NCBI GenBank assembly: GCA_024642295.1
Contig: JAHEBK010000010.1
Coordinates: 1-15,587 of the forward strand
Direction: 5' to 3'
DNA from: Flavobacterium sp.
Lineage (GTDB): Bacteria; Bacteroidota; Bacteroidia; Flavobacteriales; Flavobacteriaceae
DNA: 15,587 bases
In this document: piece after piece, positions 1,491 through 15,587 of the stretch
Numbering within the stretch: position 1 is the stretch's first letter
Layout: the number at the start of each line of letters is the position of its first letter
Program-made: the position numbers and the translations under genes
Notes under the pieces: generated by a model
Told to the model about the DNA's origin: nothing
The model's input: the letters and a program-made list of their open reading frames with translations, nothing else
Databases searched by the model: none

Positions 1491-2888
1491 ATGCAATTAA
1501 GCGACGAAGAAGAAAACTACAACTTATCTTTATCTAAATTTGAGTCGATGTTGAAAACCAATAAGGTCTTCTTTTTTGACTCTGAAGAATTTGAAGAAAT
1601 TATTCTTCATTACCTAGATACCGGTAAGACTGCATTGGCTAAAAAAGCCCTTAAATTAGCTTTAGACCAACACCCTAAATCAACTGGTTTGAAATTGGTA
1701 CAAGTCGAAATGCTTATTTTTGAGGACAAGCTAGAAATTGCCGAAAAGCTTCTCAACGAACTCTACGCTATTGAACCTCATAATGAAGAAATCTACATTC
1801 AAAAGGCCAATATCTGTTCTAAAAGAGACCAACATGAAAAAGCAGTTGAATACCTTAAAATGGCTTTAGAATTCACTGATGATTATGCCGATGTGTATAA
1901 TTTGATTGGGATGGAATACCTGTTTATGGACAATCTTGAAGAAGCAAAAGACAGTTTTATTAAATGCTTAGAAGAAGATTTAGAAGACCAATCTGCTTTA
2001 TACAATGTTGTTTATTGTTTTGAGTTTTTAGACAAAAACACCGAAGCAATAGAATATCTTAATAATTACATTGAAAAAAATCCCTATAGCGAAATTGCCT
2101 GGCACCAAAAAGGACGTTTGCATTATGGCTTAAACCAGTATGAAGAAGCTATTCGTGCTTTTGAATATGCCACCCTAATTGATGAAGATTTTTTAGGAGC
2201 CTATATGGAAAAAGCAAAAGCTTACGAACGCCTAAACCAATATGACAAAGCGATCGAAAGTTATAGTCGTACTATTGAACTAGACGACGCCACTTCCTAT
2301 GCCTTATTAAGAATTGGGAAATGCCATGAAAAACTAGGAAATACTGCTTTTGCATTAAAATTTTACAACGATACGGTACATGAAGATCCTCTTTTAGACA
2401 AAGGATGGATTGCCATTACCGATTTCTATGTACGCCAAAATAATTTTCAAAAAGCATTGTTTTACGTCAACAAAGCACTAGCTATTGACAACCAAAACAA
2501 ATTGTATTGGAAAAGATATGCCACAATAAACAAACAAATGAACTTTTTTGAAGAAGCTGAGTTTGGTTATAGAAAAGCAGTAGAATTTGGCGACACTGAA
2601 TTAGATACTTGGTTATTTTGGGTTGATTTATTACAATTTTTAGGTGAATTTGACGGCGCAATACTTACCCTATTACAAGCTAGTGAATTCTATCCTGAAT
2701 CAGATGAAATTGAATACCGATTGGCAGGATTGTACTTTATGATTCAAGACAATGCTAAAGCTAAATTTCATTTAAGTAATGGATTACGTCTTAACTTTGA
2801 CAACTATGTCATTATTGAAGATTTATTCCCAATAGTTTGGACAAAAAAAACAGTACAAAATTATATTGCAAAACATAAAAGACAATAA
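1491..2888 (+). CDS. Cytoplasmic tetratricopeptide-repeat protein
   Basis: A 465-residue acidic protein without a signal peptide or membrane segment. It is built almost entirely of helical TPR repeats. Clear units include PHNEEIYIQKANICSKRDQ (about residues 93-112), YADVYNLIGMEYLFMDNLEE (about 127-146), SEIAWHQKGRLHYGLNQYEE (about 199-218) and the following GAYMEKAKAYERLNQYDKAI. TPR arrays are protein-binding scaffolds, and no catalytic domain accompanies them here. The stop codon overlaps the aroE start by one base, so the two proteins are probably translationally coupled. I recall the TPR-aroE arrangement as recurrent in Flavobacteriaceae. That points to a conserved pairing, but the partner and task of the TPR protein are unknown. 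The ATG at 1491 precedes an acidic start (QLSDEEE) and no better upstream start is seen. Confidence 0.85.
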   Translation: MQLSDEEENYNLSLSKFESMLKTNKVFFFDSEEFEEIILHYLDTGKTALAKKALKLALDQHPKSTGLKLVQVEMLIFEDKLEIAEKLLNELYAIEPHNEEIYIQKANICSKRDQHEKAVEYLKMALEFTDDYADVYNLIGMEYLFMDNLEEAKDSFIKCLEEDLEDQSALYNVVYCFEFLDKNTEAIEYLNNYIEKNPYSEIAWHQKGRLHYGLNQYEEAIRAFEYATLIDEDFLGAYMEKAKAYERLNQYDKAIESYSRTIELDDATSYALLRIGKCHEKLGNTAFALKFYNDTVHEDPLLDKGWIAITDFYVRQNNFQKALFYVNKALAIDNQNKLYWKRYATINKQMNFFEEAEFGYRKAVEFGDTELDTWLFWVDLLQFLGEFDGAILTLLQASEFYPESDEIEYRLAGLYFMIQDNAKAKFHLSNGLRLNFDNYVIIEDLFPIVWTKKTVQNYIAKHKRQ

Positions 2889-3640
2889 TGGTTGCCATCA
2901 ACAAAAAACGCTTTGGTTTATTAGGAAAAAATATTAGTTACTCTTTTTCAAGAGGTTATTTTACAGAAAAATTTAAACTTGGAAACTACGAAGGATGTAG
3001 CTATGAAAATTTTGATATTCCAGAAATCGAACTTTTCACTGAAATCGTAAAAGCCAATCAACCTGAAATAAAAGGGATTAACGTAACGATACCATATAAA
3101 GAAGCCGTAATTCCTTACTTAGATAAATTATCAAAAAAAGCAGCAAAAATAGGCGCTGTAAATACTATTAAGTTCACAAAAAAAGGGAAACTAAAAGGTT
3201 ATAATACGGATTATTACGGATTCAAAAAATCACTAGAACCATTAATACAATCACACCATAAAAAAGCACTAATATTAGGAACTGGTGGCGCCTCAAAAGG
3301 AGTAGCTTTTGCTTTATCGGAGTTAGGAATAGACTATCTTTTTGTATCCCGTGGAAAGAAGGAAAACACCATTGATTATAGCCAAATAGACGATACTATT
3401 TTCAATGAATACCATATCATTATCAACAGCACTCCAGTAGGAACAAGTCCAAATATCGAAGCTTGCCCTGAAATACCCTATGAATTGTTTTCAAAACAAC
3501 ATATTGCTTACGATTTAATATACAATCCAGCAGAGACTCAATTTCTAAAAAACGCGAAAGCCAGAGGGGCTCAAATTAAAAATGGATTAAGCATGCTAGA
3601 ATTCCAAGCTGAAAAATCTTGGGAAATTTGGAATAAATAA
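2888..3640 (+). CDS. aroE: Shikimate dehydrogenase (NADP+)
   Basis: Catalyses the reversible reduction of 3-dehydroshikimate to shikimate with NADPH, the fourth step of the chorismate (aromatic amino acid) pathway, in the cytoplasm. At 250 residues it is slightly shorter than E. coli AroE. The shikimate-binding serines are in the N-terminal GKNISYSFSRGYF segment. NVTIPYK carries the catalytic lysine K71. GYNTD supplies the catalytic aspartate D108. The Rossmann glycine loop is GTGGASKGVAFAL, followed by SRGKK (R155), which replaces the NRTxxK motif of proteobacterial enzymes for the NADP phosphate. NSTPVGT and the C-terminal MLEFQAE (Q240) complete the site. All key residues are present, so the enzyme should be active. 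The start ATG is inside the TAATG junction with the upstream TPR gene, which indicates translational coupling. Confidence 0.95.
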   Translation: MVAINKKRFGLLGKNISYSFSRGYFTEKFKLGNYEGCSYENFDIPEIELFTEIVKANQPEIKGINVTIPYKEAVIPYLDKLSKKAAKIGAVNTIKFTKKGKLKGYNTDYYGFKKSLEPLIQSHHKKALILGTGGASKGVAFALSELGIDYLFVSRGKKENTIDYSQIDDTIFNEYHIIINSTPVGTSPNIEACPEIPYELFSKQHIAYDLIYNPAETQFLKNAKARGAQIKNGLSMLEFQAEKSWEIWNK

Positions 3641-13411: not shown

Positions 13412-14056
13412 TTAAGAATGCTTTACAGCAATAGATTCTAAAACACTAGCAACACTCTTACATTTATCTGTTGCAGTTTCTAAAACAGATAATACTTCTT
13501 TATATTTAATGATGTTTTTGGCATCTGTTTCGTTTTCGAAAATTTCAAAAACAGCTTTATTATAGACATCATCCGATTTGTTTTCTAGTTTACTAATTCT
13601 AGCACAGGCTTCGGTAATACTTCTAACATTTTTTAAATTTCTCAATTCTTTCACAGCCAAATCAATTTGTTGACATGCATCTAAATTGATTTCTGTTAAT
13701 TTTCGAATTGATTTTGTGATTTTATCAACTTGATACAAACGCATAATACTGGAAGCACCATGCAATCTATCAGCAACATTATCAATAGAAGTAATCAACG
13801 AGTGAATATCTTCTCTATCAAAAGGAGTAATAAAGTTTTTACTCAATTCTATATTAGTCTGTCTTGTAATATCTTCTCCTTTTTGTTCTAAAACATCAAT
13901 TTTTTGAAAAAGAGTATCCCTTTCTTTCAATGGTAAATTAACCGCTTCATGCAAATCAGAGGCTAATTCAATCAAATTACTTGATGCTTTTTCAAAAAGC
14001 GGAAAAAATTTCTTGTCCTTTGGAGCTAAAAATTGGAAAATACTATTTAGTGACAT
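13412..14056 (-). CDS. DUF47 / PhoU-like PiT accessory protein
   Basis: A 214-residue, all-helical cytoplasmic protein of the PhoU-divergent family (PF01865, DUF47). It starts MSLNSIFQFLAPKDKKFFPL, a typical opening for the family. The PhoU-like metal-site acidic clusters are visible in TPFDREDIHSLITSIDNVADRL and in EVLSVLETATDKCKSVA near the C-terminus; a further acidic segment is SKLENKSDDVYN. No membrane segment or signal peptide is present. Family members sit next to PiT genes and are thought to modulate the permease or coordinate phosphate uptake, and this one immediately precedes pit in the same direction. It is not the classical PhoU of Pst systems, since no Pst genes are nearby. Confidence 0.9.
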   Translation of the reverse strand: MSLNSIFQFLAPKDKKFFPLFEKASSNLIELASDLHEAVNLPLKERDTLFQKIDVLEQKGEDITRQTNIELSKNFITPFDREDIHSLITSIDNVADRLHGASSIMRLYQVDKITKSIRKLTEINLDACQQIDLAVKELRNLKNVRSITEACARISKLENKSDDVYNKAVFEIFENETDAKNIIKYKEVLSVLETATDKCKSVASVLESIAVKHS

Positions 14057-14080
14057 TTCTTTCTATTTTATTGTTGGGCG

Positions 14081-14088
14081 CAAATTTA
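14081..14088 (-). promoter_or_regulatory. -7 promoter element for the DUF47-pit operon
   Basis: The - strand reads TAAATTTG (14088 to 14081), a perfect match to TAnnTTTG, followed by CGCC. It predicts a start site near 14077 and a 5' UTR of about 20 bases. The -33 region is poor (TTTA at 14108-14105, spacing 16). Confidence 0.55.
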
Positions 14089-14183
14089 ATTTATTTTTTT
14101 TAACTAAACCCATCATTCCCAACAAATCAACTTTCATCCCATAACCTTTATTTTAATGGAACATTAAAAACCAAAAAATGCTT

Positions 14184-14214
14184 TTTGTTTTTTTATAAAA
14201 AAAATGTAATTTTG
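14184..14214 (+). promoter_or_regulatory. Bacteroidota-type promoter (P1) for the threonine leader and thrA
   Basis: TTTG (14184-14187), a 19-base spacer and TAATTTTG (14207-14214) match both promoter elements of the phylum exactly, with ideal spacing. The predicted transcription start is near 14218, about 7 bases before the leader-peptide ATG. It is the best-formed promoter in the window. Confidence 0.65.
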
Positions 14215-14224
14215 GCCTTTATCT

Positions 14225-14317
14225 ATGAATACAAACAGAAATACATATACTACTTTCTTAACAACTTCAACCGAAGTTGTAATTTCTGTTACTTTTACAA
14301 CAACTACTACCCCTTAG
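14225..14317 (+). CDS. thrL: Threonine-rich leader peptide of the thr operon (attenuator peptide)
   Basis: A 30-codon reading frame, ATG 14225 to TAG 14315-14317, too short for routine gene calling. It begins MNTNRNTYTTFLTTSTEVVI and ends in SVTFTTTTTP. Thirteen of 30 residues are threonine: positions 3, 7, 9, 10, 13, 14, 16, 23 and 25-29. The last five are consecutive and lie one codon before the stop. Val18, Val19, Ile20 and Val22 add branched-chain codons, reminiscent of the Thr/Ile control of E. coli thrL. The peptide sits 103 bases upstream of thrA, whose pathway makes threonine, and starts about 7 bases after a predicted transcription start. The inferred role is regulatory: ribosomes stalling at Thr codons when charged tRNA-Thr is scarce would alter folding of the downstream RNA. 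The peptide itself need not be stable. The gene symbol is given by analogy; homology to enterobacterial ThrL is not claimed. Confidence 0.8.
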   Translation: MNTNRNTYTTFLTTSTEVVISVTFTTTTTP

Positions 14318-14369
14318 GGGGAAACAATTCACATATAATCTTATATTTGCATTTTCCTTATTCAAGGAA
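14261..14369 (+). promoter_or_regulatory. Candidate attenuator RNA structures in the thr leader
   Basis: Several hairpins exclude one another. A: ACAACTTC (14261-14268) with GAAGTTGT (14273-14280), perfect 8 bp, AACC loop. B: GTTGTAA (14276-14282) with TTACAAC (14295-14301), 7 bp, reusing the right arm of A. C: CCCC (14310-14313) with GGGG (14317-14320) across the leader stop codon. C': GGGGAAA (14318-14324) with TTTCCTT (14353-14359), two G-U pairs, reusing the G run of C. D: TTCCTT (14354-14359) with AAGGAA (14364-14369), reusing the right arm of C'. A ribosome stalled at the Thr run (14297-14311) would cover B and C and favour C'. I saw no strong GC stem followed directly by a U run. The best weak candidate is 14376-14405 (ATGTA/TACAT plus G-U pairs, then TTTTATTT). 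Confidence 0.45.
14342..14349 (+). promoter_or_regulatory. Possible second promoter (P2) for thrA, downstream of the leader
   Basis: TATATTTG, followed by CA, is a perfect -7 match and would start transcription near 14353, bypassing the leader peptide and leaving a 68-base 5' UTR. No TTG is found 17-23 bases upstream, so it may be chance in AT-rich sequence. Confidence 0.35.
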
Positions 14370-14420
14370 GGTCTTGGATGTATAAAAAATAGTACATTTT
14401 TATTTAATAAAATAAACAGA

Positions 14421-15587
14421 ATGAAAGTATTAAAATTTGGCGGAACCTCTGTAGCCAATGCAACAAACATAAAATTAGTTTTAGACATAGTCGCTAACAA
14501 AGCCAAACAAGATAAAATAGTCGTTGTGGTTTCAGCTCTTAGTAAAGTAACCGATACTTTACATTTAGCAGCAGCAAAAGCAGCAGCCAATGATGAATCT
14601 TTCAAAGAAATCATTGCTGATATTGAAAAAATGCATTTGGACACTTTGAAAGAGTTAATACCTGTTAGTGAACAAAGTAGTTTATTAAGCCATGTGAAAC
14701 GCATCATCAATCATCTTGAAACCCTTTTAGATGGTTGTTATTTATTAGGGGAACTTTCTGCTAGAACTTTAGATACTATTTTAGGTTTTGGTGAATTACT
14801 TTCATCCTATATCATTGCTGAAGCATTGAAACAAAATTTAAAAAACAGTAGTTATAAAGACAGCCGCGAATTAATCAGAACCAATAGTAACTTTGGGAAA
14901 GCGACGGTAAATTTTGATGTTACTAATTTATTAATTACAGAGTTTTTCAATTCTAATGAAAATCAAGTAGTTGTAATGCCTGGTTTTATTTCGTCATCTA
15001 CAGATGGGATAAGCACCACTCTAGGTCGTGGTGGTTCAGATTATACTGCAGCCATTTTAGCAGCAGCATTAAACGCACCTGATTTAGAAATCTGGACAGA
15101 TGTAAACGGAATGTTTACTGCCAATCCTAAGATTGTAAAACAAGCACAACCAATTGCTACAATTTCGTACCAAGAAGCAATGGAGTTATCGCATTTTGGT
15201 GCCAAAGTTTTGTATCCTCCAACAATCCAACCCGTATTACAAAAAAACATACCTATATATATCAAGAATACTTTTGCTCCTGAAGCAGAAGGAACTTTTA
15301 TCTCTAACAAGCCTGTTGCAAGTGCTAATCCTGTAAAAGGAATTAGTCATATTGAAAAAATCACTTTGATTACACTTGAAGGACCTGGAATGATTGGTGT
15401 TACAGGTTCGTCTAAAAGACTTTTTGAAGTACTTTCTTTGGCTCATATTAATGTTATTTTCATCACTCAAGCGTCATCAGAACATTCAATTTGTATTGGT
15501 ATTCTTAATGAAGATGCTGATGTTGCTGAAATAGCCATCAACAAAGCTTTTGAAATTGAAATTGCTCAAAACAAAGTGGATCCATGC
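14421..15587 (+). CDS. thrA: Bifunctional aspartokinase / homoserine dehydrogenase I (partial, N-terminal 389 residues)
   Basis: The reading frame is open from ATG 14421 to the window end. ThrA phosphorylates aspartate (first step of the aspartate family) and, through a C-terminal domain outside the window, reduces aspartate semialdehyde to homoserine. Visible here is the aspartokinase domain: MKVLKFGGTSVAN (catalytic lysine K5), GFGELLSSYIIAEAL, PGFISSSTDG, STTLGRGGSDYTAA (198-211), LEIWTDVNGMFTANP and MELSHFGAKVLYPPTIQP. The start of the ACT regulatory region follows (ITLITLEGPGMIGVTG, from about residue 314, then INVIFITQASSEHSICIG). The residue order and ACT start match E. coli ThrA rather than stand-alone LysC, so fusion to homoserine dehydrogenase is inferred, not seen. 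Family members are about 810-820 residues, so about half is missing. Feedback control by threonine through the ACT domains is expected, in addition to the leader-peptide control upstream. thrB and thrC often follow. Confidence 0.93.
   Translation, partial: MKVLKFGGTSVANATNIKLVLDIVANKAKQDKIVVVVSALSKVTDTLHLAAAKAAANDESFKEIIADIEKMHLDTLKELIPVSEQSSLLSHVKRIINHLETLLDGCYLLGELSARTLDTILGFGELLSSYIIAEALKQNLKNSSYKDSRELIRTNSNFGKATVNFDVTNLLITEFFNSNENQVVVMPGFISSSTDGISTTLGRGGSDYTAAILAAALNAPDLEIWTDVNGMFTANPKIVKQAQPIATISYQEAMELSHFGAKVLYPPTIQPVLQKNIPIYIKNTFAPEAEGTFISNKPVASANPVKGISHIEKITLITLEGPGMIGVTGSSKRLFEVLSLAHINVIFITQASSEHSICIGILNEDADVAEIAINKAFEIEIAQNKVDPC

Follow-up and report, generated by a model that had tools for sequence, protein, structure and literature searches.

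The stretch of Flavobacterium DNA analysed here (15,587 nt, in the following called the window) raises the question whether a short threonine-rich open reading frame in front of thrA is a leader peptide and, if so, in which way it could control the gene downstream. In E. coli the thrABC operon is governed by the thrL attenuator, a short Thr-rich leader ORF upstream of thrA containing Thr and Ile codons. The reading frame in the window (uORF) occupies positions 14225–14317 of the forward strand, extends from an ATG to a TAG codon and encodes the peptide MNTNRNTYTTFLTTSTEVVISVTFTTTTTP, in which 13 of the 30 codons specify Thr. Five of these stand in a row (ACA ACA ACT ACT ACC, 14297–14311, forward strand); this run, whose threonines are conserved in the genus, is the proposed stalling site. 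It is followed by a single CCT codon and by the stop codon TAG (14315–14317), and after a gap of 103 nt thrA starts at 14421. A preliminary description of the sequence had named the 30-codon ORF with its 13 Thr codons, the run of five ahead of the stop and the distance to thrA, and all of this is borne out by the reading frames of the window. The window contains 294 reading frames with a length of 20 aa or above; among these the uORF ranks first with a Thr fraction of 0.43, the next value being 0.20. Under the intergenic base frequencies the probability of at least 13 Thr in 30 codons is about 5.5e-9. The cluster of Val and Ile codons that had also been pointed out is present as the stretch VVISV; its V18 codon (GTT, 14276–14278), however, lies inside the 3' arm (14273–14279) of the hairpin H0 described below and may be kept for structure.

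The downstream gene (14421–15587, forward strand), which we take to be thrA coding for a bifunctional aspartokinase, is truncated by the end of the window, so that 389 aa of its N-terminal part are present. In the relatives L004, L006, and L075 the equivalent ORF comprises 815–816 aa, and the next ORF, presumably homoserine kinase, has 306–322 aa. The closest relatives of the window thrA protein come from Flavobacterium. The genome to which the window belongs (G000) amounts to 2.2 Mb in 425 contigs and is 69% complete. It contains a second aspartokinase-like stretch (G000:C358:2374-3483, locus L002), which is 40% identical to the window thrA. Two MAG contigs labelled Klebsiella pneumoniae and Lentimicrobium (L060 and L067) carry a thrA 79–80% identical to that of the window together with a Flavobacterium-type leader; the labels or bins of these two look wrong.

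A/T-rich intergenic DNA often contains short ORFs, which would speak for a Thr-rich ORF that is present by chance and has no function. We regard this as hardly credible, as the conservation of the ORF, its synonymous drift, a frame control, and a set of control gene starts are all contrary to it. The conservation was assessed with two tests. The loose test, an ATG-initiated ORF with at least 4 Thr and more than 15% Thr at most 320 nt upstream of thrA, was passed by all 80 named loci of the genus. The strict test called for at least 4 Thr, and for Thr plus Ile at half of the positions, within about 12 terminal codons. This test was passed by 83 of the 84 sequences from Flavobacterium (two genus leaders are duplicates, leaving 82 distinct ones). 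In the remaining genera of the Flavobacteriaceae it was passed by 37 of 68 leaders (a count that includes L157, which failed), and in other families of the class by 12 of the 24 leaders that were read. The controls were 465 gene starts, drawn from the same loci and not independent since many are mutually homologous; 4 of them passed, and all 4 are the thr leader itself.

The leaders from other genera were obtained by a family search, which found thrA at E<=1e-120 in 144 of 199 genomes, among them that of the window. Upstream regions were taken from 69 of the 143 other genomes, of which 1 belongs to Flavobacterium and 68 to other genera. A start was locatable in 67 of these 68; L141 and L160 are without a locatable start. 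Promoter and structure counts refer to 62 or 61 of the 67 other-genus leaders, L102, L110, L130, L148, and L150 having no hairpin by any pattern and L090, with a longer hairpin loop, no start codon. L157 belongs to the same family, was found via the class search, whose loci are the 30 best places, and was counted in the strict test only.

The sole miss of the genus in the strict test is L024 from F. luteum. In this locus (2804–3000) the stop-codon hairpin is kept and the leader peptide is poorer in Thr codons; a weakened Thr sensing is possible. As a further variation, 28 of the 82 genus leaders (e.g. L014, L074, L077) contain about 25–90 extra bases between leader and thrA. Several of these long-spacer leaders share a similar GTTTTCAGTTTCAGTTCACAGT stretch, which is perhaps a mobile repeat.

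The leaders were also compared codon by codon. The four codons before the ACC of the hairpin at the stop codon specify Thr in 320 of 328 cells (82 genus leaders), with ACT, ACA, ACC, and ACG interchanged. Within the ten codons ending at this hairpin the Thr fraction in the genus is 0.72 in frame versus 0.00 in the other frames, where the reading frame was set by the ACC codon and Thr at that one position is given by construction. The same ten codons in other genera show 0.44 Thr and 0.18 Ile in frame versus at most 0.03 each. Accordingly, the terminal codons are nearly pure Thr in Flavobacterium and a mixture of Thr and Ile in the other Flavobacteriaceae genera. Because Thr is kept despite synonymous drift and the other two frames are almost without Thr, the comparison indicates that selection is acting on the meaning of the codons, beyond the DNA alone. 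The preliminary description had proposed to look in relatives for a Thr-rich ORF that persists with synonymous drift, and such an ORF does persist. We thus consider it very probable that a Thr-sensing leader peptide precedes thrA.

Where transcription of the leader could begin is suggested by a -7 promoter element, TAATTTTG (14207–14214, forward strand), which was recognized as a genus-wide match to the Bacteroidota pattern TAnnTTTG. This box is situated at most 60 nt from the uORF start in all 82 genus leaders and at a distance of 9–11 nt in 77 of them. In other genera the box was found in 57 of 62 leaders, in 45 of these at 16–23 nt. For F. johnsoniae promoters were accepted if transcription started 4–5 nt past the -7 element, and leaders longer than 10 nt were described in 87% of the cases (PMC6847099). 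From the spacing between box and ORF together with this start rule, transcription in the window is expected to start at about 14219–14220, roughly 5 nt before the uORF. For the genus this predicts a nearly leaderless thr uORF with a 5' UTR of about 4–7 nt. A sigma-70 promoter scan of the region 13900–14600, which models no Bacteroidota promoters, gave no site.

We then considered which RNA structures accompany the ORF. A hairpin inside the uORF, H0 (ACAACUUC-AACC-GAAGUUGU, 14261–14280, forward strand), was predicted by RNAalifold from 53 genus leaders with changes on both sides in 6 of 7 pairs. When own and swapped arms were compared, z values of -6.6 in the genus and -4.35 in other genera were obtained. 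The scores observed for H0 and H1 together were reached by 0 of 500 shuffles, which ignore relatedness. By comparative sequence H0 qualifies as a covarying hairpin. It is also the single terminator-like match in a scan of 13900–14600.

The second hairpin, H1 (CCCC-UUA-GGGG, 14310–14320, forward strand), was recognized by its conserved pattern and carries the UAG stop codon (14315–14317) across its loop and 3' arm. The pattern ACCCY-N2-4-RGGGT is present in 81 of 82 genus leaders and in 60 of 67 other-genus leaders; the one genus miss is the window itself, in which the outermost pair is A-G. A first control gave 37 matches in 371 gene starts, H1 being palindromic and genes divergent from thrA sharing its leader; after 43 starts sharing or overlapping the leader had been dropped, 0 of 330 controls matched. 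In the family alignment (A1) both-side changes were found in 0 pairs of H1, and in the genus alignment one pair is U-A in 2 sequences. H1 is hence conserved in sequence, with pairing being plausible. Because there is almost no covariation in H1, it may be conserved for a purpose other than pairing.

Three further elements are situated between H1 and thrA. The motif ACAUAUAAUC(C) (14331–14340, forward strand; columns 127–136 of alignment A2) is largely at least 90% conserved. In the window the motif, ACAUAUAAUCC, lies 10 nt after H1, and a related UAUAU...CGUCCG stretch is found in many other-genus leaders. The leader fold moreover contains H2, a pyrimidine/purine hairpin (UUUUCCUU-AUUC-AAGGAAGG, 14352–14371, forward strand) without a U-run after it. 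The H2 zone has a mean z of -1.69 in the genus; in the swap test H2 reached z -3.8 in other genera versus z -0.08 at a fixed position in the genus, and was rejected at that position. Last, the fold shows H3 (14376–14405, forward strand), a weak A/U-rich stem GGAUGUA/UACAUUU followed by UUUUUAUUU, which is the terminator-like site nearest to thrA. Two other searches for pairing were discarded. A tree-null unsupervised covariation analysis of 84 genus leaders was dominated by phylogeny, the best pair having an expected false count of 1.55. A long-range pairing of CGGACAUA early in the uORF with the downstream UAUNCGUCCG, complementary by eye in other genera, had a z of -1.7 when own and swapped partners were compared, the extreme of 176 tests being -2.47.

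The question how the leader could act depends on whether a terminator is present. The leaders were scanned from H1 onward for stems that contain GC and have 5 or more T in the next 8 positions. In this lenient scan H1 itself with its U-rich stretch passes in 55 of the 82 genus leaders, a site in the H2 zone in 3 and a later site in 1, and 26 leaders contain no such site. In other genera H1 passes in 9 of 62 leaders, and nothing was found from H1 onward in 52 of 62. Lowering the threshold to at least 4 T of 8 gave 72 of 82 genus and 27 of 62 other-genus leaders, which is above shuffles. Terminator-like sites inside the uORF, before H1, occur in the genus (27 of 82 leaders) and are absent from the 61 leaders of other genera; on these counts H0 was not taken for the terminator, a role that is nevertheless conceivable within the genus. 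The scans of the genus and of other genera thus revealed no canonical intrinsic terminator between the thr leader ORF and thrA, and in the window the weak H3 with its U-run is the only terminator candidate before thrA. Of the thrL-like attenuation proposed in the preliminary description, the conserved Thr leader therefore stands, whereas a terminator/antiterminator pair is not clearly present in the scans or in the modelled pairing.

Such a pair would nevertheless be formed if H3 (14376–14399 plus the U-run) acted as terminator and if, upon stalling at the Thr codons, ACAUAUAAUCC paired with UUGGRUGUAUA as antiterminator. For this classical two-hairpin switch it can be said that a T-run of at least 4, located 60–112 nt past the GGGG, occurs at the position of H3 in 40 of 54 short-spacer genus leaders, and that in the window the expected number of modelled H3 pairs drops from 6.55 with the ribosome at the stop codon to 3.19 with the ribosome stalled. 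The effect is not general, however: the mean over the 38 genus leaders in which both elements were found is unmoved (2.18 versus 2.17 pairs), and in the window the pairing of the motif itself amounts to 0.0 pairs in the stalled state. H3 is moreover weak and A/U-rich, it is absent from the output of the terminator scan for 13900–14600, and no counterpart was seen in other-genus leaders. As the modelled position of the ribosome has no consistent effect over the 38 leaders, a 2:3/3:4 switch of this type was set aside, and we judge it unlikely.

Termination could alternatively be brought about with the help of Rho, which would load on a stretch rich in C and poor in G past the uORF wherever no stalled ribosome protects it. 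In other genera C minus G in the 70 nt before thrA is 0.104 (n=55) versus 0.040 in the regions before other ORFs of the same loci (n=52; p=4e-6), and several of these leaders have no local hairpin in the 70 nt before thrA. Flavobacterium, on the other hand, does not show this bias (median C/G 1.18 versus 1.12 in controls), and the his leaders, which bear terminators, display it as well (1.80). Since Rho sites are in addition beyond proof from sequence, we rate Rho-assisted attenuation as somewhat doubtful, with slightly better prospects than the two-hairpin switch.

A stalled ribosome could also alter the RNA structure at the start site of thrA and thereby control translation. Modelled accessibility of the thrA start shifts by more than 0.05 in 17 of 111 leaders; its mean, however, is the same with a stalled ribosome as without (0.606 versus 0.604, n=111), and H1 is about 100 nt away from the thrA start. 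Given that no mean change was seen, translational attenuation was rejected as a candidate and appears improbable.

Because the modelling gives no support to translational control and none that is consistent to the H3 switch, and because the C-rich, G-poor stretch is absent in Flavobacterium, we favour an explanation centred on H1. The comparison of the leaders establishes the conserved coding ORF, the promoter box, the covariation of H0, and the conserved sequence of H1; from these we infer stalling, masking of H1, termination, and the sign of the response. In outline, RNA polymerase would initiate about 5 nt before the uORF, and the nearly leaderless mRNA would immediately be loaded with a ribosome. 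Under a shortage of charged tRNA-Thr this ribosome would stall in the Thr run and cover H1, and transcription would proceed into thrA. With ample threonine it would complete the uORF and depart, so that H1 could form and the polymerase would be halted or delayed at H1 or shortly after it, either through weak intrinsic termination or assisted by Rho.

We hold it for probable that the ORF senses threonine as a leader peptide and regulates thrA through ribosome-dependent attenuation of transcription, the explanation centred on H1 being the best one. That the masking of H1 is the decisive detail is reasonable to entertain though short of probable. More tentative still is the full reading as a terminator-less Thr attenuator of the Flavobacteriaceae, in which the small hairpin over the stop codon is hidden by the stalled ribosome and the polymerase otherwise stops or pauses, possibly with Rho. 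The frequent passing of H1 with its U-rich stretch in the lenient scan of the genus speaks for the H1-centred explanation. Against it stand the poor U-tract after H1, the 31 of 68 other-genus leaders that fail the strict Thr/Ile test, and the fact that it assigns no role to H0, H2, and the downstream motif. Since a ribosome at the stop codon covers H1 as well, the explanation also needs a fast release of the ribosome or a pausing polymerase. Attenuation based on coupling is probably available to Flavobacterium cells, given that their his leaders resemble classical attenuators.

If the H1-centred explanation is true, the threonine biosynthesis of a large environmental bacterial family would be under the control of a leader peptide. 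It would also provide a compact handle on the extent of coupling between transcription and translation in Bacteroidota, whose mRNAs are without Shine–Dalgarno sites. In the more tentative terminator-less reading the leader would represent a minimal ribosome-masking attenuator in such a phylum. The genus itself offers a natural contrast between his leaders with a canonical terminator and thr leaders in which none was found.

The leader constitutes a conserved RNA element without an Rfam match: the window has 0 matches at gathering score, and of the 7 matches with E<=5 in 14150–14450 none belongs to a leader family. Of 120 family genomes, 61 contain a single match to a model of the element (R1), 58 of these just upstream of thrA; the counts include many genomes used for building the model. 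The exceptions are G074, where the match (E 0.0066) lies away from its thrA, and G056 and G106, which have no thrA match at E<=1e-120. In the class sample 5 of 197 genomes have a match, four of them Flavobacterium, so that there is hardly any match outside the family; weak matches are lost by the stricter filters applied in both searches. The element therefore appears to be specific to thrA.

The preliminary description knew of no well-characterised thr attenuator in Bacteroidota. The novelty for the group has to be qualified, as leader-peptide attenuation has already been proposed in Flavobacterium: for F. psychrophilum, strong clues for it were reported upstream of amino-acid operons, with pheA and hisG named among the conserved 5' elements (PMC9723704); the paper has 64 structured 5' regions, and its main text contains neither the term thrA nor threonine. 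Leader-like short ORFs are mentioned in Bacteroides (PMC7366714), and the terms Bacteroid-, Flavobacter-, and thrA do not occur in the searched text of PMC2965389. For the thr leader in particular, no paper on such a leader in Bacteroidota was found by title or abstract in a search that covered literature other than older subscription titles.

A comparative survey of attenuators by Vitreschak and colleagues from 2004 is said to cover Bacteroidetes/Chlorobi.

One close system for comparison is the his leader of the same genus. In the hisG loci L181–L201 a leader ORF with a His run is followed by ACCCGTTTGAGTA...CGGGTTTTT just before hisG, i.e. as in the thr leader a run of cognate codons is located in a leader ORF upstream of a biosynthetic gene. 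Unlike the thr leader, the his leader has a canonical terminator: the pattern ACCCG...CGGGTTTTT, which was written after seeing these leaders, occurs in 21 of 22 loci, and the general scan (stem at least 8) found a terminator in 15 of 21. The position of the ORF differs as well, since the his uORF starts 19–36 nt past the nearest -7 box in 20 of 21 leaders, compared with the 9–11 nt of the thr uORF. In the Bacteroidia family f39 (L169, L174, L178, L180) a Thr/Ile-rich leader ORF lies upstream of thrA as it does here. Unlike in Flavobacterium, these thr leaders possess a strong terminator, in 4 of 4 when read by eye and by pattern and in 3 of 4 in the general scan; the count covers these four leaders, two further f39 matches having been left out. 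The family f16 (L170, L176, L177, L179), likewise of the Bacteroidia, has a Thr/Ile leader with an ACGGGGT...CCCGT-type repeat at the stop codon.

Regarding E. coli, the conserved Thr leader supports the likeness to thrL and with it the earlier suggestion of a functional analogue in Bacteroidota. To judge from the sequences, the principle is a known one, leader-peptide attenuation, in a different RNA layout, that of a Thr leader for which no standard terminator was found. Unlike thrL, the Flavobacterium leader is without a canonical terminator in our scans, its ORF is predicted to be nearly leaderless, and it has one hairpin inside the ORF and another one over the stop codon. As in thrL, a Thr-rich ORF is placed just before thrA, a possible RNA stem overlaps its last part, and in the other Flavobacteriaceae genera Ile joins the Thr codons.
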